Shown in pieces: positions 1 through 21,716 of a stretch of DNA of 23,823 nt. The stretch is from a virus. Where the stretch lies: positions 1 to 23,823 of IMG/VR virus record IMGVR_UViG_3300036768_000395. One strand, 5' to 3'. Position 1 is the stretch's first letter. Each line of letters begins with the position of its first letter. The notes under the pieces are model-generated. The model ran no database searches, had not been told where the DNA came from, and was given only the letters and a program-made list of their open reading frames with translations. Position numbers and translations under genes: made by a program.

Positions 1-352
1 ATGCCCCATCAATCGGATCATCATCTCCAGGTTGGCCGCCCATCTCCCCGATCTGCTGCCCGCCGCTGACAGCATCCCCGACATTGACCATCACACGATG
101 CAGATGAGCATATAACGTTTTATATGCTCCAGACTCGTGCACGACGATAACATGCCGCCCATATCCATGAGCGCCAGTCAGGTTTACCTCCGCCACAACC
201 CCATCCGCCGCCGCATAGATCGGCGCCCCTACCGGCCCGCCGATGTCAACACCCATGTGCCGGTAGGTCGGCGCGGGATACATCTTTGCGTTCACATTCC
301 CCCACCGCTGCATCACCTGCAAATCCTCGCGTGTCGGATATACATATTTCAT
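1..352 (-). CDS. M23-family peptidase (LytM/endolysin-like), partial
   Basis: The reading frame opens at 352 and runs open through the left edge, so only the first 117 codons are seen. The protein contains the LytM signature: HMGVDIGG near residue 33 (H and D are zinc ligands in the family), followed by PVGAPIYAAADG and, further on, YAHLHRV with the second H-x-H ligand pair. M23 enzymes are zinc endopeptidases that cut peptidoglycan cross-bridges. There is no signal peptide at the visible N-terminus, so export would need the holin-like proteins encoded upstream, or the domain is a virion-associated lysin. A GGAG sequence lies 8 bases before the ATG. It follows the large terminase gene in the same late transcription unit. 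Whether it is an endolysin or a structural lysin cannot be decided without the missing 3' part. Confidence 0.85.
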   Translation of the reverse strand, partial: MKYVYPTREDLQVMQRWGNVNAKMYPAPTYRHMGVDIGGPVGAPIYAAADGVVAEVNLTGAHGYGRHVIVVHESGAYKTLYAHLHRVMVNVGDAVSGGQQIGEMGGQPGDDDPIDGA

Positions 353-379
353 TCATCAATCTCCAATCACCAATCTACA

Positions 380-1924
380 TCACAAAATCCTGCTCTCCCT
401 CGCCCTCCGCGTCAACTTCAACAACTCGTTGAACGCGCTCGCCGCCGCATCCACCTGGTCATCATGCCTCCCGTTGGGGAACGCCGCGCACTCATCCAAA
501 AAATCCGCATTCCACTCCCCCCTCACAATCCGCACCTTCCCGCTTTGCGCCATCCCCGCCAGCGGACCCGCCCGCACCGCCTTATCCCCCGTCACCGGAT
601 CGAACCGCGCCCGCAGTCCGGCCTCTGCTAGCGCCTCATTCGTCGCCCGTGCGCTGTCCAGCCCGGCGCTCCCCGGATCCTGCTGGTGCAGAATCACGAA
701 CGGCCCCAGCGCCTCGTAATCCCGCCGCCCGATCTCCACCATCGCCCGGTCCCGCTCCCCGCTCGCGGCGCGCATCCGCGCCACATGCTCGATATAAAAA
801 TACCCATCATCCCCAACACTCATCAAAACCCCAGCCGTATAGTCCCCGGTGGGTGACGCCGCCTTATCCCAGTACCGCACCCGCGCCCGCACCTGGCTCG
901 GACCCGTCTCCACAACCGTAAACCACTCCCGGCGGAAAAACCCACCCTCCCGCAGGTACGGCATCTGCTGATACAACGCCTCGAAATCATACGCCCCTAG
1001 ATTCAGCCGCCGCTCCGCCAGCCACTCCGCCCCGAACCGCTCTGGCCAGAGCGCCTCGCCCGGTCGCCGTCCCAGTGCATCCTCAAGCGGGAGATAAATT
1101 CCATCCCTCATCATCTCCCGCTGTTGCGCCTCACTCCCCGCATACTGCTCCAGCGCCAGCGCGGGCAGGCACACCACCGTCCAGGCGTCCCCGCCCTCCA
1201 GTTGCCGCCGTAGCAACCGCCCAGCCAAATCGTCCGGGTGCCAGCGCGTATGAAACAGCACAATCGCACCCCACGGAGAGAGACGGGTATATGCGCTCGA
1301 CCGATACCAGTCATCCACCAGATTCCGCCGCGCCTCGCTCTCCGCCTCCTCGCGGTTTTTAATGGGGTCATCAATAATCAACAAATCCGCCGAGAGACCC
1401 GTAATCCCGCCGCCCACGCCCGCCGCCACCAGCCCCCCCCGATGCGGCTGTGCCAAATCCCATGCCTGCACGTTTCGGCTATCGCTTGAAAGTTGCACAG
1501 GCTCATCCACCGCGCTTAACCCCCCAAACAACGCCTGGAACGCCGTCCCCGTGACGATTTCCCGCACCGCCCGGCTCGACTTCACTGCCAGGTCGGCACC
1601 ATAACTCGCCAGGATAATCCGCGTATCCGGTCGCCGTCCCATCATCCACGCTGGAAACAACCGACTCGCTAGTTCTGTTTTACCATGTCTCGGCGGCATT
1701 AGAATCATCAACCGCCCGATGCCCTCTCGCCCCCCCGTCTCGATGAACCGCGCCACCTGCTCCAGCCGCTCCGCCAACAATGCCACATGCGCCGGGACCT
1801 GATACTGCGCATCCACATACTGGCAGAAATGCACCAGCCGCCGCCGTGCCAGTTCCCGCCGTGCCCGTTCCGCTGCCGCCTTCCGCGGCGTCACCCGCGT
1901 CATCGCGCCCGCCGCCAGCGTCAT
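380..1924 (-). CDS. terL: Phage terminase large subunit (TerL)
   Basis: This 514-residue protein is the ATP-driven DNA packaging motor and nuclease. A Walker A-type P-loop, PPRHGKTE, is at residues 77-84. The Walker B segment LLIIDDP is at 181-187, and the coupling motif region FHTRWHPDD is near 224-232. The C-terminal RNase H-like nuclease domain begins around YWDKAASPTGDY (351-362, with acidic D353) and ends with HDDQVDA (487-493), whose aspartates are the expected metal ligands. The length is normal for the family. The start overlaps the stop of the small subunit gene by 4 bases (ATGA), which fits translational coupling, and a GAGGAGGG-type ribosome site precedes it. All key motifs are intact, so the protein should be functional. 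Confidence 0.96.
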   Translation of the reverse strand: MTLAAGAMTRVTPRKAAAERARRELARRRLVHFCQYVDAQYQVPAHVALLAERLEQVARFIETGGREGIGRLMILMPPRHGKTELASRLFPAWMMGRRPDTRIILASYGADLAVKSSRAVREIVTGTAFQALFGGLSAVDEPVQLSSDSRNVQAWDLAQPHRGGLVAAGVGGGITGLSADLLIIDDPIKNREEAESEARRNLVDDWYRSSAYTRLSPWGAIVLFHTRWHPDDLAGRLLRRQLEGGDAWTVVCLPALALEQYAGSEAQQREMMRDGIYLPLEDALGRRPGEALWPERFGAEWLAERRLNLGAYDFEALYQQMPYLREGGFFRREWFTVVETGPSQVRARVRYWDKAASPTGDYTAGVLMSVGDDGYFYIEHVARMRAASGERDRAMVEIGRRDYEALGPFVILHQQDPGSAGLDSARATNEALAEAGLRARFDPVTGDKAVRAGPLAGMAQSGKVRIVRGEWNADFLDECAAFPNGRHDDQVDAAASAFNELLKLTRRARESRIL

Positions 1925-2541
1925 CCCTCGCCCTCCTCATCCCGCAATGCCCGTGCCAGCGCCGCCAGTTCCTCCTCGCTCCACTCGCTCAAATCCCCTT
2001 TCACCCGCTTCGTCATTTCCGCCACCAGTTTACTGGCAGGCACGTAATCCCCCAGTAGTTCCAGCGCCAGTTTACGGTCGTTGTGCGATTTATATTCCGG
2101 CTTCACCGCCACCGCCAGCAATGCCCGATAAATCTCCGCCCGATGCTCCCACAGCGGAGCCGCCTGCAACTGCGCCACCATCTCATCAATCAGCGGATTT
2201 TTGCGCCGCCAGGTGCTGATCGCCCGGTCGCTTGTCAGCCCCAGATGCTCCCGCGCCAACTCGTCCATCGTCCGCGGCTGGCGATTGACCTTTGGGCTGG
2301 ACGCCCACGCGATATACGCCGCCTGCCGCCATGGCCATCCACCCGCCCGCAGACGCAGATAATCCTCATACCATCCGACACCCGGCCCGAACCGCGCCTC
2401 GAACGCCGCCCGCGCCTGCTCACTGATCCGGCGCGCCTCCTCCGCCGAAAACGCCTCCGCGTCCTCGGTCGGAACATCCAGGTCAAACGCCAACTGCCGG
2501 TACTCATCCGGCAGCGTCACATCCGGTCGCTTAATCGGCAT
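1921..2541 (-). CDS. terS: Phage terminase small subunit-like protein
   Basis: This 206-residue protein lies directly upstream of terL and overlaps its start by 4 bases. The central part (about residues 65-125) reads as a DNA-binding region: GGWPWRQAAYIAW, then a helix-turn-helix-like stretch, LGLTSDRAISTWRRK. This is followed by a helical region of the kind used for oligomerisation (EIYRALLAVA, DRKLALELLGDY), as in small terminases that recognise the packaging site and hand DNA to TerL. The last 30 residues are rich in charged residues (EWSEEELAALARALRDEEGEG). The call rests on position plus HTH content, because small subunits diverge quickly. A weak GATGAGGT ribosome site precedes the ATG at 2541. 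Confidence 0.8.
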   Translation of the reverse strand: MPIKRPDVTLPDEYRQLAFDLDVPTEDAEAFSAEEARRISEQARAAFEARFGPGVGWYEDYLRLRAGGWPWRQAAYIAWASSPKVNRQPRTMDELAREHLGLTSDRAISTWRRKNPLIDEMVAQLQAAPLWEHRAEIYRALLAVAVKPEYKSHNDRKLALELLGDYVPASKLVAEMTKRVKGDLSEWSEEELAALARALRDEEGEG

Positions 2542-2553
2542 ACCTCATCACTT

Positions 2554-2579
2554 CCACTGCCAACTGCTCACTGCTCACT
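2554..2579. repeat. Heptamer repeat (CTGCTCA type)
   Basis: Tandem CTGCTCA units overlap the gap between the small membrane gene and the terminase small subunit. They are a variant of the heptamer family seen elsewhere in the window. Confidence 0.55.
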
Positions 2580-2849
2580 CTTCCTCGCCACCTTCACCGC
2601 CCCCTCAATTTTCGCCATCGCCTGCCGCATCGCCGTATCATGCGCATCGAGCCGCTGGGACACACGGTCCAGCATATCTGCAATCCGCTCCATCGCCACA
2701 TCGTTTATTTTTGCCTGCTGGACAAAAAATTCCCGCCACTGCGAATCCCGCTGCGCCGCGTATTTTGCGTTTCGCCGGTCCATCTCCAGAACAAACCAGA
2801 CGAACACCCCCACGATGGGAAACTGCGTCAACAAATTGTCCCAATTCAT
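2568..2849 (-). CDS. Small membrane protein with coiled coil, holin- or spanin-like
   Basis: This 93-residue protein has one N-terminal hydrophobic segment (about residues 9-22, FPIVGVFVWFVLEM). It is followed by a charged segment (DRRNAKYAAQRDSQWREFF) and then a heptad-like helical region (MERIADMLDRVSQRLDAHDTAMRQAMAKI). This layout of short N-terminus, single membrane helix and charged coiled coil matches BhlA/UviB-type phage holins and other lysis accessory proteins. It lies between a polytopic holin-like gene and the terminase genes, in the place where lambdoid phages keep lysis genes. The ribosome site is weak (GGGTG). The holin role is inference from layout and position; no diagnostic motif is visible. 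Confidence 0.6.
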   Translation of the reverse strand: MNWDNLLTQFPIVGVFVWFVLEMDRRNAKYAAQRDSQWREFFVQQAKINDVAMERIADMLDRVSQRLDAHDTAMRQAMAKIEGAVKVARKSEQ

Positions 2850-2868
2850 CTACACACCCACGTGTCCA

Positions 2869-3210
2869 TCACCAACCGAACCGCTCAGCAATTCCGTCCA
2901 GCACTCGTTTCAGCAGCGCGTTATACACCAGCGTCGCAAATCCAACAAACGCCGAAAGCGGCACCAGCAACTCGCCCGCCCATGCCACCAGCGCAGGCAC
3001 AAACCCAGCCAGGTCACCGCCCCACGTCGGGAACGGCGGCAGACTCACCGGTGAAAACGCCCATGCCAGCAACCCGGCTACAACGTACACTCCAGCCGTC
3101 AACCACCCACTGGGAATACTCCCGCCGCGTTTGCTGATTGCTCGCACCACCCACACAATCACCGATGCGACCAAACCAACCATAAACATCAACTCAGGCG
3201 ACATCTCCAT
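2869..3210 (-). CDS. Holin-like polytopic membrane protein
   Basis: The 113-residue protein starts at the ATG at 3210, preceded by GAGGTG at good spacing. The frame stays open further upstream to 3474, but that part crosses a promoter, a terminator and a CRISPR-like repeat and is not coding. Three hydrophobic segments are visible: about residues 7-24 (FMVGLVASVIVWVVRAI), 34-54 (WLTAGVYVVAGLLAWAF) and 74-100 (FVPALVAWAGELLVPL and beyond). The C-terminus is basic (LLKRVLDGIAERFGW). A small three-helix membrane protein as first gene of the late unit, just ahead of terminase genes, is typical of a phage holin, which forms the lesion that releases or activates lysins. The exact holin class cannot be assigned. 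Confidence 0.6.
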   Translation of the reverse strand: MEMSPELMFMVGLVASVIVWVVRAISKRGGSIPSGWLTAGVYVVAGLLAWAFSPVSLPPFPTWGGDLAGFVPALVAWAGELLVPLSAFVGFATLVYNALLKRVLDGIAERFGW

Positions 3211-3228
3211 CGTACACCTCCAAATCGT

Positions 3229-3271
3229 TAAAAATAGAGCGCCGCCGGTCATTGCTGACACGGCGGCGCTC
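3229..3271 (-). terminator. Intrinsic terminator/attenuator in late leader
   Basis: A perfect 11-bp inverted repeat (3237-3247 with 3261-3271, GAGCGCCGCCG and its complement, 13-base loop) is followed on the minus strand by UAUUUUUA. It lies about 80 bases after the predicted start of transcription and about 20 bases before the holin-like gene. It should stop or attenuate transcription unless an antiterminator acts, as at lambda tR'. Confidence 0.7.
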
Positions 3272-3293
3272 ATCTCGCCAAATCGTCCCGCCT

Positions 3294-3327
3294 GGGCGCT
3301 GGGGAGGGGGTCGGGGGGACAGCGCCC
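3294..3327 (-). promoter_or_regulatory. Leader RNA hairpin, GC-rich
   Basis: A perfect 8-bp stem (GGGCGCTG at one end, CAGCGCCC at the other) encloses a 18-base loop. It lies in the untranslated leader between the promoter at 3354-3383 and the terminator at 3229-3271. It may shape RNA polymerase pausing or antitermination; no protein target is evident. Confidence 0.5.
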
Positions 3328-3328
3328 T

Positions 3329-3348
3329 GCAGAACCGCTAGGCTCTGC
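3329..3348 (-). promoter_or_regulatory. 5'-end hairpin of late leader
   Basis: An 8-bp hairpin, GCAGAGCC-TAGC-GGTTCTGC on the minus strand (one G-U pair), sits right at the predicted transcription start. Hairpins at this position can stabilise the transcript or take part in antitermination. Confidence 0.45.
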
Positions 3349-3353
3349 AAAAA

Positions 3354-3383
3354 ATTTTAGCACAAACATTCTGTAATTGTCAA
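3354..3383 (-). promoter_or_regulatory. Sigma70-type late promoter
   Basis: On the minus strand, TTGACA (3378-3383) and TAAAAT (3354-3359) are separated by 18 bases. This is a near-consensus housekeeping promoter reading toward the holin-like, terminase and M23 peptidase genes. The upstream flank CTATTGACAATT is shared with the promoter at 9869-9896, which suggests common recognition or a shared operator. The predicted start point is near 3347, just at the first leader hairpin. Confidence 0.75.
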
Positions 3384-3400
3384 TAGGCAATTGCCAGAGA

Positions 3401-3429
3401 TTATTCCCCACACACGTGGGGATGAACCG
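3401..3429 (+). CRISPR. Solitary type I-E-like CRISPR repeat
   Basis: One 29-base unit has the architecture of type I-E repeats on the plus strand: a TT-rich 5' end, the hairpin CCCCAC-ACAC-GTGGGG (6-bp stem, 4-base loop), then ATGAACCG, which equals the class's 8-base 5' handle (E. coli: ATAAACCG). No second intact copy, no cas gene and no array were found in the window. At a 61-base offset (29+32, the type I-E repeat-spacer period) 3462-3490 keeps 15 of 29 matching bases, which may be a decayed repeat or chance. Solitary repeats in phages are known to act as RNA-based anti-CRISPRs; a captured host remnant is the alternative. No promoter reading through it on the plus strand is convincing. 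Confidence 0.75.
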
Positions 3430-3431
3430 CA

Positions 3432-3555
3432 GCCCAACATTTGCGTTAGGCGCACGGCGGATTAAGCCACACACCTGCGCTTACAAATTATTTTGTTATG
3501 TCACGCTTGCCCGCTTGGGACAGCGTAGCCGTGTCGCCTGCACGCGATGTTAGGT
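3432..3555 (-). repeat. Integron attC-like imperfect palindrome
   Basis: Read on the minus strand, this 124-base element starts with ACCTAAC (R'' consensus RYYYAAC) and ends with GTTGGGC (R' consensus GTTRRRY). The 28- and 27-base end arms pair at about 22 positions. There is a GCGT/AGGCG/CACGGC block of paired L-type boxes and unpaired extra bases on one arm, as in true attC sites, where extrahelical bases set the recombined strand. Size falls within the usual attC range (about 57-141 bases). It covers the 3' end of the 76-residue gene at 3488-3718, which is where an attC sits in a gene cassette. No integron integrase is in the window. Confidence 0.5.
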
Positions 3556-3718
3556 GGCGTTTCATTTCGGTGAGAATAATCTCTAGGTCGCTTATTTTGT
3601 ACTCGCCATATAAAGTAACTATTTCATCACCCGCGAAAAAATGAACATAACCTCCGTGAGAAGCGAAGTATTCAATACCACCAAAGTCATCGTCTTTTGA
3701 AATCAATTTTATTGTCAT
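3488..3718 (-). CDS. Hypothetical 76-residue protein, possible integron-cassette gene
   Basis: The ATG at 3718 has a strong AGGAGG ribosome site 8 bases upstream. The body of the protein (residues 1-52) is acidic and beta-rich in look (MTIKLISKDDDFGGIEYF, VTLYGEYKISDLEIILTEM) and is not a family I recognise. The final part, from about residue 54 (RHLTSRAGDTATLSQAG), is encoded by the attC-like palindrome, so it is probably a read-through tail rather than a conserved domain. A near-match to the cassette junction (GTTAGGA, 3728-3734) just upstream of the ribosome site would make 3432-3733 a cassette of about 300 bases. The gene is lower in GC than its neighbours, consistent with separate origin. 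Because it adjoins a CRISPR-like repeat, an anti-defence role is imaginable but unsupported. Confidence 0.65.
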   Translation of the reverse strand: MTIKLISKDDDFGGIEYFASHGGYVHFFAGDEIVTLYGEYKISDLEIILTEMKRHLTSRAGDTATLSQAGKRDITK

Positions 3719-3727
3719 AAATAAGCC

Positions 3728-3734
3728 TCCTAAC
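3728..3734 (-). repeat. Possible cassette boundary (GTTAGGA)
   Basis: GTTAGGA on the minus strand matches 6 of 7 positions of the integron core site GTTRRRY. It lies just upstream of the 76-residue gene, where the left boundary of a cassette ending at 3432 would be expected. It overlaps the ribosome binding site, so the match may be chance. Confidence 0.25.
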
Positions 3735-3764
3735 TATGGATTATATGGATTAGATTAATTTCTG

Positions 3765-4391
3765 TTACTCCCATGCCCTCGAATATGGCCTGTCCTTGAA
3801 CAATGCCGCCAACCCGCTAATCTGTTTCAGGCGCAAAAGCTCCTCTGCATCCATCCCAATATGCTTTCGGATCCAGTCATCCCCCATCCCTGCCTCCACC
3901 AGTTCTGCCACGATGTTGACCATCAGGTCAACACTATGCGTTCCCCTCGCCCGATTATGTCGGATAGTGGACGCCATCCGGTCCGTCAATGCTCGCTTCT
4001 CCGGGCGGATCGTCGTAATCGGAATATATCCTCGCGTGGACTCATGGATGGATGCACTCGTCCGTTCTGCCTTGCGCCGGTGGAACCCGTCCACAATGCG
4101 GATAACATCCGTGTCGGGGAACGTGACAATCGGCATAGTATATCCGTCCTCGTCAATTGAACGAATAAGCAATTTCATTTCTGGCGGTGCGACCACGTTG
4201 GGGTTGTACTCGTTCCCCTCAACATTTTCCGACTTTTCCCAGCGGACATAATCCACTGGGTGATGTTTCAACGGGCTGACCTGGTGCAGGATGTACCGTA
4301 CCTGATTCAACGCGTTTATTTTCTGGTCTTCGTCTGGCAGCGCTGCAATCGCATCCGCCAATTCCTGTGCCTTTTTCAAAATTTCGTCCAT
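3765..4391 (-). CDS. ibrB: IbrB-like ParB/sulfiredoxin-fold protein
   Basis: This 208-residue protein has the ParB N-terminal-like fold of IbrB. The proline/asparagine-rich entry YNPNVVAPPEMKLLIRSI (about residues 62-79) precedes the core VDGFHRRKA (101-109, like the ParB GxxRxxA box), then ALTDRMASTIRHNRARG (135-151), the second conserved box. The C-terminus has an HTH-like helical segment (DDWIRKHIGMDAEELLRLKQ). IbrB proteins are always found with IbrA, as here, where only one base separates the ibrA stop from this ATG. ParB-fold proteins of this group bind nucleotide and may cut or modify DNA; the true role of IbrB is not established. The stop at 3765 is about 45 bases ahead of the 76-residue gene, so both may be co-transcribed. 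Confidence 0.85.
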   Translation of the reverse strand: MDEILKKAQELADAIAALPDEDQKINALNQVRYILHQVSPLKHHPVDYVRWEKSENVEGNEYNPNVVAPPEMKLLIRSIDEDGYTMPIVTFPDTDVIRIVDGFHRRKAERTSASIHESTRGYIPITTIRPEKRALTDRMASTIRHNRARGTHSVDLMVNIVAELVEAGMGDDWIRKHIGMDAEELLRLKQISGLAALFKDRPYSRAWE

Positions 4392-4392
4392 T

Positions 4393-5721
4393 TTACAACT
4401 CCATGAATTTTCTCATTGCGTCGTGCCGCAATTGTTTTTCGTAATTCGTCATCCCGTAACCCATGTATTTACAGGAATAATCGTTTTTAAGAATAGTGAT
4501 CACAATTCGCTTCCATGAAGGCAAATTGACAAAGTGTTTGCTGTCAATGTCGTCCGGGTACTCCTTGAACCGCACAAGCACAATATCATCTCTGTCCTGA
4601 TAAATTTTTCCAGGTGGTTTTCCCAATATCTCAAACTCATACCCGGAACGATACAGATCTGGAAGCGCGTCCACATAAACTGTTGCACCTGTTTTAAGCC
4701 ATACTTTAAATGTACTCTCAAATTTTTTCCTGAACATCTTGGCAATGTAAGGCGGTAAAGTCGAAAGTAAAAACTCAGCGTAACTCTTCCAGGTATGCCC
4801 AGGCGGAAGAGAAACCTGTTTGTATCCCATCGCCTTTGTTGCCCCATAAATTGCGCCAAAGTTTGCTCCATTCACACGGCCAACCAGTTTCGCCCAGGTA
4901 TTCGGCTCAATCGCCCGATGCAGCCCCAGGCTCGACACACCCTCATCAATGAATGCACTCGCCACGCGCATCTCCCGAAAATCCAGTCCTGCCTGATAGT
5001 ACAAATCATACAAGCGGTTATAGTCGAACCCCTCACGGGCATTGGCTGTCCACACATCCTCAAATAGCCAATCGTAAATTGGATATGCCATGTATTGGTC
5101 TTTTTTGACTTTTGTAATCCACTTTCTGCCCTTATAGAGATTGACTTTCTTCTCACTGGCAACCGCCCGCCAGCGATTGACGCTCTCCTGCGCCCGGATA
5201 CCGAGCGCGTTGACTGTTTTCCCGCCTTTCATCCGGTGAACCCAATCAAGAAATTTACTATCGAATTCGGTATCTTCAATCCCCCTGTAGTAAAAATCAT
5301 ATGGATGATTTTCCTCTGTATAAACATGCAGTCCATTACTAAGTTTAGGATAATCCCGCACCCAAATCTCCCTCTCTTCTGGGTTCCACGGCAACCAATA
5401 ATTACGATAAATGCTGACCCCACATTTCGTTTTGTACGTAAGACAAACCCAATGTAGCTCAATCAAATCAGCATTTGCCTCCACCATGCGACGGATAAAA
5501 TCCTCTGTGTACTGATAACTACCCTCATAATCCATGTAATAAACCACAATTTTGCGCGTGATATTTTCTCTCCGCATATATCGGAAAATCATATTCAACA
5601 AAACTCCGCTATCTTTTCCCCCCGAAAAAGACACAACGATATTATCAAACTCATGAAACAAGAACGCAATACGCTCCTGCGCCGCCTCGTAAACGTCTTT
5701 GTCTAAATATTGTTGCGCCAT
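4393..5721 (-). CDS. ibrA: IbrA-like PAPS reductase-family PP-loop enzyme (DUF3440)
   Basis: The 442-residue protein opens with the PP-loop SFSGGKDSG (31-39), which binds ATP or adenylyl-sulfate in the PAPS-reductase/N-type ATP pyrophosphatase superfamily. It continues with YYMDYEGSYQYT (61-72), the family's second loop, and the conserved GIRAQESVNRWRA (about 174-186), corresponding to the R-x-E-S motif. The long C-terminal half is the DUF3440 region that marks IbrA. IbrA was named in E. coli ECOR-9 as a regulator of immunoglobulin-binding proteins, but homologues are widespread in phages and islands, where sulfur chemistry on DNA, as for DndC, has been considered. Its start lies 19 bases inside the SNF2 gene, so the two are coupled. 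Ribosome site AGAGGGT. Confidence 0.88.
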   Translation of the reverse strand: MAQQYLDKDVYEAAQERIAFLFHEFDNIVVSFSGGKDSGVLLNMIFRYMRRENITRKIVVYYMDYEGSYQYTEDFIRRMVEANADLIELHWVCLTYKTKCGVSIYRNYWLPWNPEEREIWVRDYPKLSNGLHVYTEENHPYDFYYRGIEDTEFDSKFLDWVHRMKGGKTVNALGIRAQESVNRWRAVASEKKVNLYKGRKWITKVKKDQYMAYPIYDWLFEDVWTANAREGFDYNRLYDLYYQAGLDFREMRVASAFIDEGVSSLGLHRAIEPNTWAKLVGRVNGANFGAIYGATKAMGYKQVSLPPGHTWKSYAEFLLSTLPPYIAKMFRKKFESTFKVWLKTGATVYVDALPDLYRSGYEFEILGKPPGKIYQDRDDIVLVRFKEYPDDIDSKHFVNLPSWKRIVITILKNDYSCKYMGYGMTNYEKQLRHDAMRKFMEL

Positions 5722-7706
5722 TTTTCGACCCTCTCTTTTTTGACCTCGTCTCTAAACGCTCGGACAACATCCTGTTTTCTCGACAGCGCCTCCTGAATAC
5801 GTTTGTCAATGCCAGCATTCGCCACAATGTCAATATACGTCACGGGCGCCGTCTGTCCAATCCGATGGCTGCGGTCCTCCGCCTGTACCCGATGACTGTA
5901 TTTGAACTCATTTTCATAAAAAACGTGATAATGCGCTTCGTTTAGCGTCAATCCATGCCCACCGGTCGCCTGGGTCGCCACCAGATACCGACAATCTCCG
6001 CGAAAACGCCTTAATTGCTCATCTCGCTGCTTTTCGGACAAATCGCCATAATACAGCGCGCAATCGTCCAGTGCCTCCGCAATTTGCCGCACGCTCTCTA
6101 CATATTTACACCAGATGATGACCTTTTCACATTCGGGGATACCACTCAGCGCCGTCTTCAACGTTTCCACCCGCCGATGGGGAAAGCGCAAAAACTCCCG
6201 CCCGTTTCGGTTCCAAAATCCCGAAACAATCTGCTGAAGCGCAGTGAACAACTGGAAAATGATGTAATCTTGAATTTCATCCAGAATGCCATTGATGATT
6301 TCATCCTTCGCCTGCTGATAGGCGTCCCACTGCTCATCGGTCAGCCCAAAATAAATCTGGTCATAGAGTTTATCAGGCAGACTCATGCACTCTTCCTTCG
6401 TCACCTGATAGACAAACGGCTCAATCCGTTTGACAATCTCATCTACTCCATAAGTCCTGACGATCAGTCCAGGATACTTTTCACTGTATTCCAGGTGCTT
6501 GCGGGCAAAAGAGTAAAATGAACTGTATCCCAAAATATCGGGTGACAAAAAGCGCATTTGCGCATACAGATCAACAACCCCCTGCGTGATTGGCGTCCCA
6601 GTCAATAGCAACCGATACCGCGCCCGCGCGCTCAACTCGGTAATTCGCGTGGAACGCTTCGACGCATGTCCCTTAATATATGATGATTCATCAACGATAA
6701 CAAACGTATCCTCATCAATCAATCTGTTGACCGCCAACACCACGCGGTCACTGCTCGACATGGACTCAATCCCTACCACATACCAAAACGCATCTGGCAG
6801 GTTGTCCGCGCTTGTGTCATTATCAAAAACGTGTATCGTCTCGCCCTCAGTGTGCTTCTGAATTTCAGCCGCGACCGTCAGTTTCAAACTCACTGGGCAG
6901 AACCAGATAACACGACTGACCCGTTCCTGACGTCGCGCAACCAACTCGATAGCGCAGCGCGTCTTGCCAGTCCCCATGTCCATGAACAGCGCGCCAACTC
7001 GTAACGGCAGAATTTTCTCAACCGCCGGAATCTGATGCGGAAGCAAATCCGTCTTCACGCGCAGATTTCTAGACGGTAAATCAGCGAACTTTGCCAGGTC
7101 ATACATTCGCTCTTTGCCACGTTTTTTCTCAATTGCTTTCGGCTTCGGCGCTTCGGGCAAAATGATTCGCTGATACGCCCGCTTGGACTCTTCCAGGCTC
7201 TCCTGCGCCCGCCGCGTAAACTCGAATCCATGCTCCTCCGCGAACCCAATCACCTCGCCGAAATAAACGGCAGGGACAGCAACACCACGTGCATCACTGT
7301 CCCACGCCGCCTCGGGCAGCATCAACGCGCGATGATACAAATCATCCTCCTGCCCCCGCCAGGACAACACATACCGCCCATTAATGTACTTTACCCATCG
7401 CTTCTGCTCTGGCTTCCACGCTCCTCTGACGACCAGGTCGGCGACCGTCTCATCCACCTCGCACCCAAATCCCGCATTGACCAACGCGCTCACCAACTCA
7501 GCCGCACGGTCAATGGGTTCTCCGTTCGTCTCCACATTCAGTACCCTGTGCCAGGCTCGTTTTTCCTCCGCCCACGAGTACCCAAGCCCCTTGACGATCT
7601 TACGAAAAGCCTCGTCATGGGCTTTGAATGAACAAAGCACCTCGCTGCCAGAAAAACGCACTTTGGCGACAATATCGGTACTGGACGCGCTTGGGGAAAT
7701 AATCAT
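5703..7706 (-). CDS. SNF2-family helicase/ATPase
   Basis: This 667-residue protein is a superfamily 2 DNA translocase. After an N-terminal region of about 200 residues with no recognised domain come motif I MDMGTGKT (about 242-249), motif II DESS in FVIVDESSYIKG (about 335-346), motif III LLLTGTPITQG (about 366-376), and motifs V-VI in the second RecA domain, GHGLTLNEAHYHVF and QAEDRSHRIGQ. The last is the hallmark SNF2 arginine-finger box. The ATG at 7706 is chosen over the TTG at 7712; either has a poor ribosome site and relies on coupling to the gene ending at 7713. It heads a unit with ibrA and ibrB, suggesting that the helicase moves along or remodels DNA for the same process. Phage SNF2 proteins also occur as replication helicases. 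Confidence 0.9.
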   Translation of the reverse strand: MIISPSASSTDIVAKVRFSGSEVLCSFKAHDEAFRKIVKGLGYSWAEEKRAWHRVLNVETNGEPIDRAAELVSALVNAGFGCEVDETVADLVVRGAWKPEQKRWVKYINGRYVLSWRGQEDDLYHRALMLPEAAWDSDARGVAVPAVYFGEVIGFAEEHGFEFTRRAQESLEESKRAYQRIILPEAPKPKAIEKKRGKERMYDLAKFADLPSRNLRVKTDLLPHQIPAVEKILPLRVGALFMDMGTGKTRCAIELVARRQERVSRVIWFCPVSLKLTVAAEIQKHTEGETIHVFDNDTSADNLPDAFWYVVGIESMSSSDRVVLAVNRLIDEDTFVIVDESSYIKGHASKRSTRITELSARARYRLLLTGTPITQGVVDLYAQMRFLSPDILGYSSFYSFARKHLEYSEKYPGLIVRTYGVDEIVKRIEPFVYQVTKEECMSLPDKLYDQIYFGLTDEQWDAYQQAKDEIINGILDEIQDYIIFQLFTALQQIVSGFWNRNGREFLRFPHRRVETLKTALSGIPECEKVIIWCKYVESVRQIAEALDDCALYYGDLSEKQRDEQLRRFRGDCRYLVATQATGGHGLTLNEAHYHVFYENEFKYSHRVQAEDRSHRIGQTAPVTYIDIVANAGIDKRIQEALSRKQDVVRAFRDEVKKERVEKWRNNI

Positions 7707-7712
7707 AGGCAA

Positions 7713-8309: not shown

Positions 8310-8618
8310 CAAAATAGACTCAATTTCTTGGTACACGCTGTGGCGTAAATGTTCTAATATGGCTTTCGCAGCCGCGTGATTGGGGGTCACATCCTCGGCA
8401 ACCGCGATAATCTGACCTTTTTCGTCATGGAGAGTGGCCTCAAAGTAATTGCCATTGTAATTGTCATCCCACTTTCTCTCTTCTTCGTAGAGAGCGGCAA
8501 ATGGGTCTTCCGCTTTGCGTTTTTCGGGGTTTACATAGGTAAGTGTAACCTTACCGTATGTAGTCCAGATGACTACATGATTACCGTGTTTATATTGGAA
8601 ATTACTCATTGTGTTCAT
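8307..8618 (-). CDS. Hypothetical 103-residue protein
   Basis: The ATG at 8618 has AGAGGA about 9 bases upstream; the longer frame reaching 8813 overlaps the neighbouring gene and is not used. The protein starts MNTMSNFQYKHGNHVVIW and alternates beta-like and charged segments (YGKVTLTYVNPEKRKAED, NGNYFEATLHDEKGQIIAV), ending in an amphipathic helix (AAAKAILEHLRHSVYQEIE). I recognise no family. Its stop codon is the first base triplet of repeat copy 1. It is one of a run of short unknown genes between the promoter at 9.89 kb and the SNF2 gene. Confidence 0.7.
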   Translation of the reverse strand: MNTMSNFQYKHGNHVVIWTTYGKVTLTYVNPEKRKAEDPFAALYEEERKWDDNYNGNYFEATLHDEKGQIIAVAEDVTPNHAAAKAILEHLRHSVYQEIESIL

Positions 8619-8643
8619 TTCGTTCTTCCTCTTTATTATGGGA

Positions 8644-8943
8644 TTACGCAATATCCAGATTACCAGCGCCAATGCTGGCCATGTATTTAGCCTCGGCGCA
8701 GCGTGCCTGGCTAATAAACTCGCTCTCCAAATTCCGCATCGCGGTCTCGTGGCTCTGATATTCGGTTTCCCCCGTGCCGCTGACCGTGTAAACACGGTCA
8801 GGACGCTCTCCATCGCGGGGAACGATGTAGGAAATCTCGGTTACATAGTACGGCTGAAATGGTTCGAGAAACTCAGGGTTGATAAGTTTCATAAACCCGT
8901 TTGGCTCGCTCACGTACTTTGTTTTGATAGATACGATTTTCAT
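8644..8943 (-). CDS. Hypothetical 99-residue protein
   Basis: The ATG at 8943 is preceded by AAAGGAG. The protein begins MKIVSIKTKYVSEPNG, a short beta-like domain follows (YYVTEISYIVPRDG, DRVYTVSGTGETEYQ), and the C-terminal part is helical (HETAMRNLESEFISQARCAEAKYM). No known family. It follows repeat copy 2. After its own stop the sequence begins TAATCCC like the repeat element and then diverges, so a lost copy may once have stood there. Confidence 0.7.
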   Translation of the reverse strand: MKIVSIKTKYVSEPNGFMKLINPEFLEPFQPYYVTEISYIVPRDGERPDRVYTVSGTGETEYQSHETAMRNLESEFISQARCAEAKYMASIGAGNLDIA

Positions 8944-8945
8944 AT

Positions 8946-9053
8946 TTTCTCCTTTGCCCCTGTCCGGCGGGACCAGCCATTAGGATTTGGTGGTATTCTG
9001 CCCACATAACTGCCCGTCAACTCTCGCTGACGGGCGGATGCTGGGCGGGATTA
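8946..9053 (-). repeat. Intercistronic RNA-like element, copy 2 (extended)
   Basis: The element fills the whole gap between the stop of one small gene (TAA at 9051-9053 is its first triplet) and the ribosome site of the next. The core hairpin at 9012-9035 has a 10-bp stem (one G-U pair) and a GAGA tetraloop at 9022-9025, read on the minus strand. The part at 8946-8988 (GGGGCAAAGGAG before the start codon) is shared with copy 3 and includes the ribosome site. Confidence 0.7.
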
Positions 9054-9326
9054 TGACATATCTGGAATCATCGAGAAAGATTCTTGAGAAGATGGGAAAA
9101 AATTGCCATCTGCATAGAATCCCTCTGGGGAATTTATCCGATATGGCAATACATTTCCCCTTGCCTGCGCAACCAAAAGATCGCACGGCGAATGGCACAA
9201 TTTGTAGGCCAGCGGGCAAAGCGGCTTATCGTGATGCGCGGTGTCAAACTTGCAGCGATGGGTTGGTGTCGTATTTGCCACACGTGCAGTGGAAAAAAGC
9301 AATTCTTGCAAATCTTCTGGTTTCAT
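9051..9326 (-). CDS. Hypothetical 91-residue Cys/His-rich protein
   Basis: The ATG at 9326 has AAAGGAG at good distance. Four cysteines occur at about residues 25, 37, 44 and 48, with a His pair between (HRCKFDTAHHDKPLCPLA, YKLCHSPCDLL), which could make a small zinc or iron-sulfur site. The rest (QARGNVLPYRINSPEGFY) gives no family. It lies between copies 3 and 2 of the intercistronic element. The function is unknown. Confidence 0.7.
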   Translation of the reverse strand: MKPEDLQELLFSTARVANTTPTHRCKFDTAHHDKPLCPLAYKLCHSPCDLLVAQARGNVLPYRINSPEGFYADGNFFPSSQESFSMIPDMS

Positions 9327-9329
9327 GAT

Positions 9330-9434
9330 TTTCTCCTTTGCCCCTTTCCGGGGCCAGCCTTTGAGATTTTGGGGGCAATCCTTCCCACCTGACTGCTCAC
9401 CAGTTGCCTGGTGAACAGATGCTGGGTAGGATTA
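9330..9434 (-). repeat. Intercistronic RNA-like element, copy 3 (extended)
   Basis: As in the other copies, the first triplet on the minus strand is the TAA stop of the upstream gene (9432-9434). The core hairpin at 9397-9414 has a 7-bp stem whose sequence differs completely from copies 1 and 2 yet still pairs perfectly, with a GCAA (GNRA) tetraloop at 9404-9407. The outer arms AATCC and GGATT pair. The second half (CCCCGGAAAGGGG hairpin, then CAAAGGAG) supplies the ribosome site of the next gene. Confidence 0.7.
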
Positions 9435-9830
9435 GACGAGAGCGGCTGCTCGGCGGGTAGCCTCCAGGGTGGTATGCCATGTCTCCACCACCCAGTCATA
9501 CCGGTAAAAATGCTGTTTCTTGAAATGGTCGTAGTGAATCCAATATGCGATGCGTCTGGCGATAACATAGACACCGCTGAATGGGACGATATAGATGGCC
9601 GTGTCGCCGACCACGCGAGCCAGTTCCGAGCCTTCAGGAGGCGTTTCGTGCGAGAAATAACTCTCGATGACCTGCCGCGCGAGTTCACGCGCGGAGGATT
9701 TGGTGGCATGGCACCGACCGGTGCCTTTTTTTATGTCACCGACCCGTACACAGGCGGAGAATATCGCCTGTTTGTCTTCCGCCGAGCCATAAACCTCGAC
9801 TGCCACATTTCCGAATTCAAAATTAATCAT
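9432..9830 (-). CDS. Hypothetical 132-residue protein
   Basis: This is the first gene behind the promoter at 9869-9896. AAGGAG precedes the ATG at 9830. The protein starts MINFEFGNVAVEVYGSAEDK, with alternating beta and charged segments, an internal helix (SARELARQVIESYFSH), an aromatic stretch (IAYWIHYDHFKKQHFYRYDW) and an Ala-rich end. I do not recognise the family. Its stop codon starts repeat copy 3. Position at the head of the small-gene operon suggests early expression. Confidence 0.7.
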   Translation of the reverse strand: MINFEFGNVAVEVYGSAEDKQAIFSACVRVGDIKKGTGRCHATKSSARELARQVIESYFSHETPPEGSELARVVGDTAIYIVPFSGVYVIARRIAYWIHYDHFKKQHFYRYDWVVETWHTTLEATRRAAALV

Positions 9831-9868
9831 TTCATTTCTCCTTGTTGTTTGAACTATTTACAACCCTA

Positions 9869-9896
9869 ATTGTAATCAAACTGTTTGAATTGTCAA
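9869..9896 (-). promoter_or_regulatory. Sigma70-type promoter with palindromic operator
   Basis: On the minus strand, TTGACA (9891-9896) and TACAAT (9869-9874) are 16 bases apart. A perfect 6-bp-arm palindrome, TCAAACTGTTTGA (9876-9888), fills the spacer, so a repressor bound there would block polymerase. It reads toward the small-gene, SNF2 and ibrAB unit. The flank CTATTGACAATT matches the late promoter at 3378-3383. Confidence 0.7.
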
Positions 9897-9902
9897 TAGT
9901 TT

Positions 9903-10148
9903 CTAACCACCAATTTCCACCCATGTCCTCACCGCCCCGCAAATCGAGCACCTCACATCCAACACCGTCCCCTGCACCACCGCCATCACATCCACCATCC
10001 CCTCTCCATCAACAATCGCCTGCCGATACAGTAGCAACCGATCCACATGCCGCCCATTGACCCGCACCCGCTCCACCATCCCCATCACATGCCCACGCCT
10101 GCACCGCCACGGCTTCAACCGCCTCCCATTTGACTGATCACCGCTCAC
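9903..10148 (-). CDS. Small zinc-ribbon protein
   Basis: The 81-residue protein uses a GTG start at 10148, with GGAGGTG just upstream; it overlaps the previous gene by 11 bases. Two metal-binding halves are visible: CRRGH (about residues 16-20) and CSIC (about 67-70), a C-x3-H...C-x2-C pattern. The middle is LYRQAIVDGEG with a beta-like stretch. The W-C-x-RGH-x-x-G segment also appears in the gene at 11477-11695, so the two may be related. Such small zinc ribbons are common in phages, but their roles are mostly unknown. Confidence 0.65.
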   Translation of the reverse strand: MSGDQSNGRRLKPWRCRRGHVMGMVERVRVNGRHVDRLLLYRQAIVDGEGMVDVMAVVQGTVLDVRCSICGAVRTWVEIGG

Positions 10149-11439: not shown

Positions 11440-11453
11440 TTCATATCTCCTTT

Positions 11454-11487
11454 GATTACTGCTCACTGATTACTGATTACTGATTAC
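11454..11487. repeat. Heptamer tandem repeat (CAGTAAT type)
   Basis: Several tandem copies of a 7-base unit (minus strand CAGTAAT, variant CAGTGAG) fill the space between two genes. Similar short tandem repeats recur at six other junctions in this window. Confidence 0.75.
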
Positions 11488-11695
11488 TTTTACTTGCATC
11501 TCCGGCTATCAAATGCCCGCGCAAACACCACCGCGCCTCCCGCACCTCCACCCCCTCCAGGCGCAGACCCGTCCCAGGCGGCACCACCACCACCTGCGCC
11601 GCCCGCCCGAAACGCTGCATATACACCCCCATCGCCAGCAGCGCCTCCTCTTCCCATCCGCGCCGCTCATCCACCCGCCATAAAATCCCAGTCAT
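11477..11695 (-). CDS. Hypothetical 72-residue protein
   Basis: The ATG at 11695 has a good AGGAGG ribosome site. The protein reads MTGILWRVDERRGWEEEALLAMGVYMQ at its start in two helical blocks, a beta-like middle (AAQVVVVPPGTGLRL), and near its end ARWCLRGHLIAG, a Cys-x2-Gly-His segment like that of the zinc-ribbon protein at 9903-10148. The last residues come from the heptamer repeat. No family is recognised. Confidence 0.6.
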   Translation of the reverse strand: MTGILWRVDERRGWEEEALLAMGVYMQRFGRAAQVVVVPPGTGLRLEGVEVREARWCLRGHLIAGDASKSNQ

Positions 11696-21638: not shown

Positions 21639-21688
21639 ATCGCCTCTCGGTTACTTTTATGTTTCCAAATGTCAATTGCCTATCTGGA

Positions 21689-21716
21689 ATTATAACTAAT
21701 TATAATCACTTGTCAA
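21689..21716 (-). promoter_or_regulatory. Sigma70-type promoter of RHH-integrase unit
   Basis: On the minus strand TTGACA (21711-21716) and TATAAT (21689-21694), a perfect consensus pair, are 16 bases apart. A palindrome, CACTTG-T-CAAGTG (21707-21719), overlaps the -35 box, a likely operator. It reads toward the RHH-like and integrase genes. Confidence 0.75.

Follow-up and report, generated by a model that had tools for sequence, protein, structure and literature searches.

A phage of probable Anaerolineae hosts carries a genuine solitary repeat unit (SRU) of the type I-E CRISPR system found in that host lineage, and the repeat lies beside an attC-like integron recombination site in a genomic slot whose content differs between relatives. 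The single most likely role of the repeat, to which we assign a probability of roughly 45%, is that of an RNA decoy for the host Cas proteins, with a captured scrap of host DNA close behind. The setting, an SRU and candidate RNA anti-CRISPR (Racr) next to an integron cassette, is apparently unreported and more interesting than the repeat itself; a literature search, which did not extend to subscription papers, yielded no report that combines integron cassettes and solitary CRISPR repeats.

A solitary type I-E repeat in a phage genome

The window, meaning the whole stretch of DNA that was analysed, is a 23,823-bp virus record (IMGVR_UViG_3300036768_000395) with genes for a terminase, a siphovirus tail protein, an integrase and a primase, and its likely genes are all on the minus strand. 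The feature at the centre of the analysis is:

3401–3429, plus strand: solitary type I-E CRISPR repeat unit TTATTCCCCACACACGTGGGGATGAACCG, with a 7-bp stem, an ACAC loop and the 3' handle ATGAACCG

The 29-base unit is present just as the initial annotation had described it, with a CCCCAC/GTGGGG stem (7 bp once the closing T-A pair is counted), a 4-base loop and a handle on the plus strand. It equals the Anaerolineales repeat GTATTCCCCACACACGTGGGGATGAACCG at 28 of 29 bases, the sole difference being base 1, whereas the rest of the window reaches a top score of 18/29 and mononucleotide-shuffled windows score 17–19/29, which rules out a chance palindrome as its origin. Folded as RNA, the repeat forms a stable hairpin (z = −3.4), and the same stem is formed by the minus-strand RNA; a search of Rfam gave no match.

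Because only one copy exists in the whole record, the unit is not an array, and its membership of a longer array is ruled out; no degenerate second repeat was detected within 200 nt. The repeat is intergenic, lying between the likely start of the minus-strand gene at 2869–3210 and the minus-strand ORF at 3488–3718. Only a mechanical GTG extension of the former overlaps it, and the RFIPTCVGN translation of this extension is the CRISPR repeat itself. The strong match to a known repeat, the lack of a second or partial repeat nearby and the intergenic position are the hallmarks by which SRUs are recognized, and the 28/29 match to the host repeat, together with its solitary and leaderless state, identifies the unit as a type I-E SRU of the host-lineage type. 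Scans of ~20 window proteins against Pfam, PADLOC and PHROGs revealed no Cas families, the nearest approach being a weak CARF/WYL match given by the integrase, in keeping with the earlier description of a lone repeat in a phage devoid of cas genes.

Elsewhere in the window (4393–7712), a PAPS-reductase/DUF3440 protein adjoins an SNF2-type helicase, with weak similarity to the DndC and ZorD/DpdE defence proteins; the same gene pair, beside a ParB-like gene, is common to several relatives (L157–L165).

Matching arrays in the Anaerolineae

The 28-mer that remains when base 1 is left out was found exactly in 16 genome-contig stretches, mostly of Chloroflexota (Anaerolineales MAGs, Brevefilum and Villigracilaceae), with a few matches in MAGs labelled Thiomargarita, Desulfovibrio(naceae) and Pyrinomonas; an array in UBA2395 holds more than 100 copies. 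On one Chloroflexota MAG contig (L005), cas7 (PF09344; cas7e), cas5, cas6e (PF08798) and cas1 are followed by the array, and on an Anaerolineales MAG contig (L009) cas6e stands beside it. Given these adjoining cas genes, both arrays belong to type I-E systems. The expectation that the host lineage carries type I-E arrays was thus borne out, with repeats that match exactly over the 28-mer and at 28/29 bases overall. Nothing next to the phage repeat resembles the leaders of the host arrays, which rules out a capture of the repeat together with its leader.

The host assignment itself is probable on sequence grounds. A 36-nt intergenic repeat of the TTACTGATTACTG type at 11453–11488 is 100% identical in Anaerolineae genomes and therefore fits a host of that lineage; none of the 464 spacers from arrays of this repeat class matches the window above chance, and protospacers lend the assignment no support. 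Intergenic TTACTGATTACTG repeats are spread across the phage (11442–11489, 11696–11743, 12750–12783, 16172–16240, 20444–20477 and 21396–21429), with stretches that are 100% identical in Anaerolineae genomes.

A putative integron-type cassette beside the repeat

An attC-bearing cassette and the swappable module to which it belongs had been missed by the initial annotation. The cassette comprises the following features:

3432–3555, minus strand: attC-like integron recombination site (R'' ACCTAAC at 3555–3549, R' GTTGGGC at 3438–3432)
3438–3733, minus strand: putative ~296-bp gene cassette, running from after G3734 (GTTAGGA) to the attC crossover base, with presumed boundaries
3488–3718, minus strand: orphan ORF of the cassette, 76 aa, with its stop inside the attC-like site

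The attC-like site starts 2 bp from the CRISPR repeat and is a 124-nt imperfect palindrome with attC end boxes and paired arms (ACCTAAC...GTTGGGC in the minus orientation); judged by its sequence, crossover would be expected at G|TT, between 3438 and 3437. A rule scan for RYYYAAC...GTTRRRY ends and arm pairing found it to be the sole site in the window scoring at least 10, a score attained in 0 of 100 Markov-randomised windows. When the scan was extended to 1.66 Mb of fetched DNA, scores of at least 10.5 were returned from Anaerolineae intI loci, from phage contig L173 and from a simple-repeat artefact in L200; the background at lower scores amounts to 27 matches of at least 7.5 in 1.16 Mb of viral loci. 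The single-stranded DNA fold of the site is also stable (z = −3.85), and end boxes, complementary arms and a hairpin-forming single strand, the sequence features of attC, are thus all present.

As the attC-like site closes the ORF and a near-consensus G|TTAGGA lies at the start (3734/3733), 3438–3733 can be outlined as a probable cassette, presumably brought in by integron recombination. Its 76-aa ORF has no match in Pfam, NCBIfam or PADLOC and no significant match in PHROGs; a search of 298 Anaerolineae genomes and of viral contigs, phages and plasmids gave no homologues, and the structure of the product was modelled with low confidence (pLDDT 49). Of the 298 Anaerolineae genomes, 74 encode integron integrases that score above the family cut-off; one of them is G008, from UBA2395, which holds the large array of the same CRISPR repeat. 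The phage integrase, the gene for which is 17 kb from the repeat in the contig, is XerC-like and not IntI (64.6 bits versus the integron-integrase cut-off of 265).

The putative cassette and the repeat occupy a swappable slot

Comparison with two relatives outlined an accessory slot, bordered by promoter-like sites:

3401–3738 (approximate), no strand assigned: swappable module of cassette and repeat, replaced in L021 and absent in L157
3740–3768, minus strand: promoter-like site GTAACA-17-TATAAT in front of the module (consensus match only; hexamers identical in L021)
3354–3383, minus strand: promoter-like site TTGACA-18-TAAAAT behind the module, directed away from the repeat (consensus match only; hexamers identical in L021)
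3386–3395, no strand assigned: palindrome GGCAATTGCC beside the 3354–3383 site (GGTAATTACC in L021, a paired change)

The terminase of L021 is 98% identical to that of the window, and the two sequences match at 93% over 350–3407 and at 95.7% over 3739–4086; between these flanks, the place of the cassette and the repeat is taken by ~339 bp of unrelated sequence that carries another ORF, of 68 aa. As a whole the two inserts are not related, 825 of 1000 randomised segments aligning equally well, and an attC-like right arm common to both (7 of 2000 randomised) was noticed post hoc and is suggestive only. In L157, whose ParB-like protein is 83% identical, just a short spacer leads from the ParB-like gene to a promoter-like TTGACA, and there is no insert. 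The initial annotation had looked to conservation of the unit in related phages; neither relative with this locus, the close L021 or the more distant L157, has the unit.

The slot is flanked by the ParB-like gene on one side and by the putative promoter of the following genes on the other, and the end of the repeat is the exact point where the shared backbone resumes. An assembly chimera is unlikely, because the phage backbone continues on either side in the same order as in L021. The slot is preceded by a promoter-like site, and whatever it contains, be it the cassette and repeat or a different small orphan ORF, is exchanged as one piece. In L021 the corresponding 29-nt stretch was considered as a repeat of another type and dismissed, having no match with up to three mismatches in 150 Anaerolineae genomes. 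For the 68-aa orphan ORF of L021 (407–613), two confident helices were predicted (pLDDT 91), with no viral fold match at E ≤ 0.001; by its position only, this ORF is an anti-defence candidate.

Both neighbouring genes and the two good promoter-like sites nearby are read from the strand opposite to the repeat. The only promoter-like match on the plus strand, TTGTCA-16-GATTAT (9/12), ends at 3404 and is unusable for a sense repeat, because the RNA start would fall inside the stem. The consensus scan accordingly gave no correctly placed sense promoter, as the initial annotation had also concluded. The palindrome at 3386–3395 may be an operator. A further motif, TGTCAATTGCCTA, is present in inverted copies at 3374–3396, adjoining the conserved promoter-like site 3383–3354, and at 21670–21692, in an intergenic position upstream of the integrase end; the two copies possibly represent a shared operator.

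Related repeats and repeat–attC junctions

When IMG/VR was scanned for the stem class TTCCCCAC-N4-GTGGGGATGAACCG, it returned 39 stretches, about a dozen of which have a single repeat away from the contig ends. Judged by mechanical ORF calls, most of these single repeats point the same way as an adjacent gene, in many cases as the genes on either side. The same repeat core forms a two-repeat mini-array in a 73-kb phage contig (L004, 3221–3309) and a five-repeat array in another IMG/VR record (L002, 7284–7553).

One contig, L173 (IMGVR_UViG_3300025308_000004), offers a parallel to the window. This 50.7-kb phage contig encodes a DNA methylase, a DnaC/IstB-like protein and an antirepressor, and includes two clusters of integron attC cassettes (1–1766 and 8450–10010). 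Bordering one attC array, its solitary type I-E repeat follows a decayed attC-like sequence by 2 nt and is 275 nt away from the last strong site. Because this adjoining sequence folds poorly, and the likeness was noticed after the fact, the parallel is suggestive only. When viral sequences were scanned a second time, for attC adjoining a sense repeat, L173 was the only find besides two ordinary arrays. Among 396 Anaerolineae genomes, six matches to a repeat–attC junction came from three genomes (G008, G367 and G011). Those in G008 and G367 were checked and map inside ordinary CRISPR arrays, so that none of the matches checked is a solitary repeat–attC junction; G011, which gave a single match, itself carries an array of this repeat (L009).

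Possible roles of the repeat

SRUs are a known source of Racrs, as the initial annotation had stated, and two type I-E candidates have been shown to work (PMC10651486). In the Racr model, Cas6 and Cas7 bind an RNA that resembles the repeat and form a dead-end complex with it, and ~90% of SRU-bearing viruses infect CRISPR-Cas hosts (PMC10651486). The phage carries a solitary type I-E repeat of the CRISPR system of an Anaerolineae lineage, along with a putative integron-type cassette, in a swappable accessory slot. We propose that it most likely serves as an RNA decoy: the site may be transcribed, in which case the hairpin would be bound and cut by host Cas6e. A sense RNA from this site would carry all parts of the repeat, and its AUGAACCG handle would also draw Cascade subunits into a dead-end complex, as with Racrs. 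Transcription, Cas binding and a benefit to the phage are presumed in this proposal. It is favoured by the 28/29 identity with intact stem, scissile G/A and handle, by the presence of identical repeats next to cas7e/cas5/cas6e/cas1 in the host lineage, by the solitary, intergenic position in an accessory slot, by solitary repeats or mini-arrays of the same core on other IMG/VR contigs, and by the inhibition of CRISPR-Cas by SRUs of types I-E, I-F, I-C and V-A (PMC10651486). The fit to a decoy that the initial annotation had suggested is only partial: the unit is a type I-E SRU with matching host-lineage arrays, but it is a single occurrence in its lineage, missing from L021 and L157, and antisense to the neighbouring genes and both promoter-like sites, with no well-placed sense promoter.

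The same orientation and the same absence from relatives are what would be expected of a functionless scrap, that is, a piece of DNA from a host CRISPR locus or integron neighbourhood that was carried passively into the phage with the module, and we regard this as a plausible though less probable origin. The attC-bearing cassette and the swappable module make recombination capture a serious rival: the repeat ends exactly at the module edge, it has no leader, spacer or sense promoter, and a recent capture would suffice to explain the 28/29 identity. One complete repeat with all its functional parts and no spacer, leader or cas DNA around it is nevertheless tidy for scrap, and solitary repeats of this class occur in other phages too. 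Because close relatives have exchanged the content of this slot, a decoy maintained by selection and a passive capture of recent date are not distinguished by the data.

The repeat could also act in the reverse orientation, through a cassette mRNA from the 3740–3768 promoter-like site, which is kept in L021 in front of the module. Since TCCCCAC/GTGGGGA is identical on both strands and is followed by an A in both, such an antisense RNA could present a Cas6e-like hairpin without the handle, and it might occupy Cas6e or pair with the repeats of pre-crRNA. We consider this role rather improbable: Cas6e is not known to bind an antisense form with a GUGU loop, and the known Racrs are sense repeats. 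Least likely is a role at the DNA level, with the repeat as an attachment or recombination target (a phage attP through which it would enter host arrays, or a site at which cassettes would insert). The 2-bp distance to the attC R' box and the similar place of the L173 repeat at a cassette-array edge are consistent with it, as is the suggestion of viral integration into arrays that has been made for SRUs (cited in PMC10651486), but the integrase gene is distant and falls far below the integron-integrase cut-off, and the Anaerolineae genomes yielded no solitary junction.

Returning to the sense decoy, its functioning would extend RNA anti-CRISPRs to phages of the Anaerolineae, a largely uncultured group, and the attC neighbourhood would offer a concrete possible route for the exchange of decoys between phages. 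A broader conjecture, which we consider unlikely, is that Racr units travel with integron cassettes, such that host attC recombination delivers and swaps CRISPR-repeat decoys in a promoter-fed phage slot, linking the integron and CRISPR arms races. The slot contents of relatives, including the 68-aa ORF of L021, form a guided set of anti-defence candidates. If the repeat is only scrap, repeat similarity taken without a check of expression overcounts Racrs.

Comparison with known systems

Like the SRUs and Racrs described so far (RacrIE1 and RacrIE2; PMC10651486), the window has one intergenic phage repeat of the subtype of the inferred host, with stem and handle intact and no cas genes or array; unlike Racrs (PMC10651486), its repeat, a candidate Racr, is antisense to the neighbours, has no sense promoter just upstream and lies beside an attC-bearing cassette. 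With the integron cassettes of phages and with CALINs (PMC9892861), it shares a small orphan ORF whose 3' end bears an attC-like site with paired R/L arms, and a phage background that lacks intI, but CALINs have at least two attC sites without intI, whereas the 23.8-kb record, possibly a fragment, has one, with a CRISPR repeat adjoining. The virus-borne mini-CRISPR arrays (PMC6858448) likewise place host-type repeats in a virus, and the same core forms the two-repeat array of L004; such arrays have at least two repeats around a spacer, and the window differs from them in having a single host-type repeat and no spacer.
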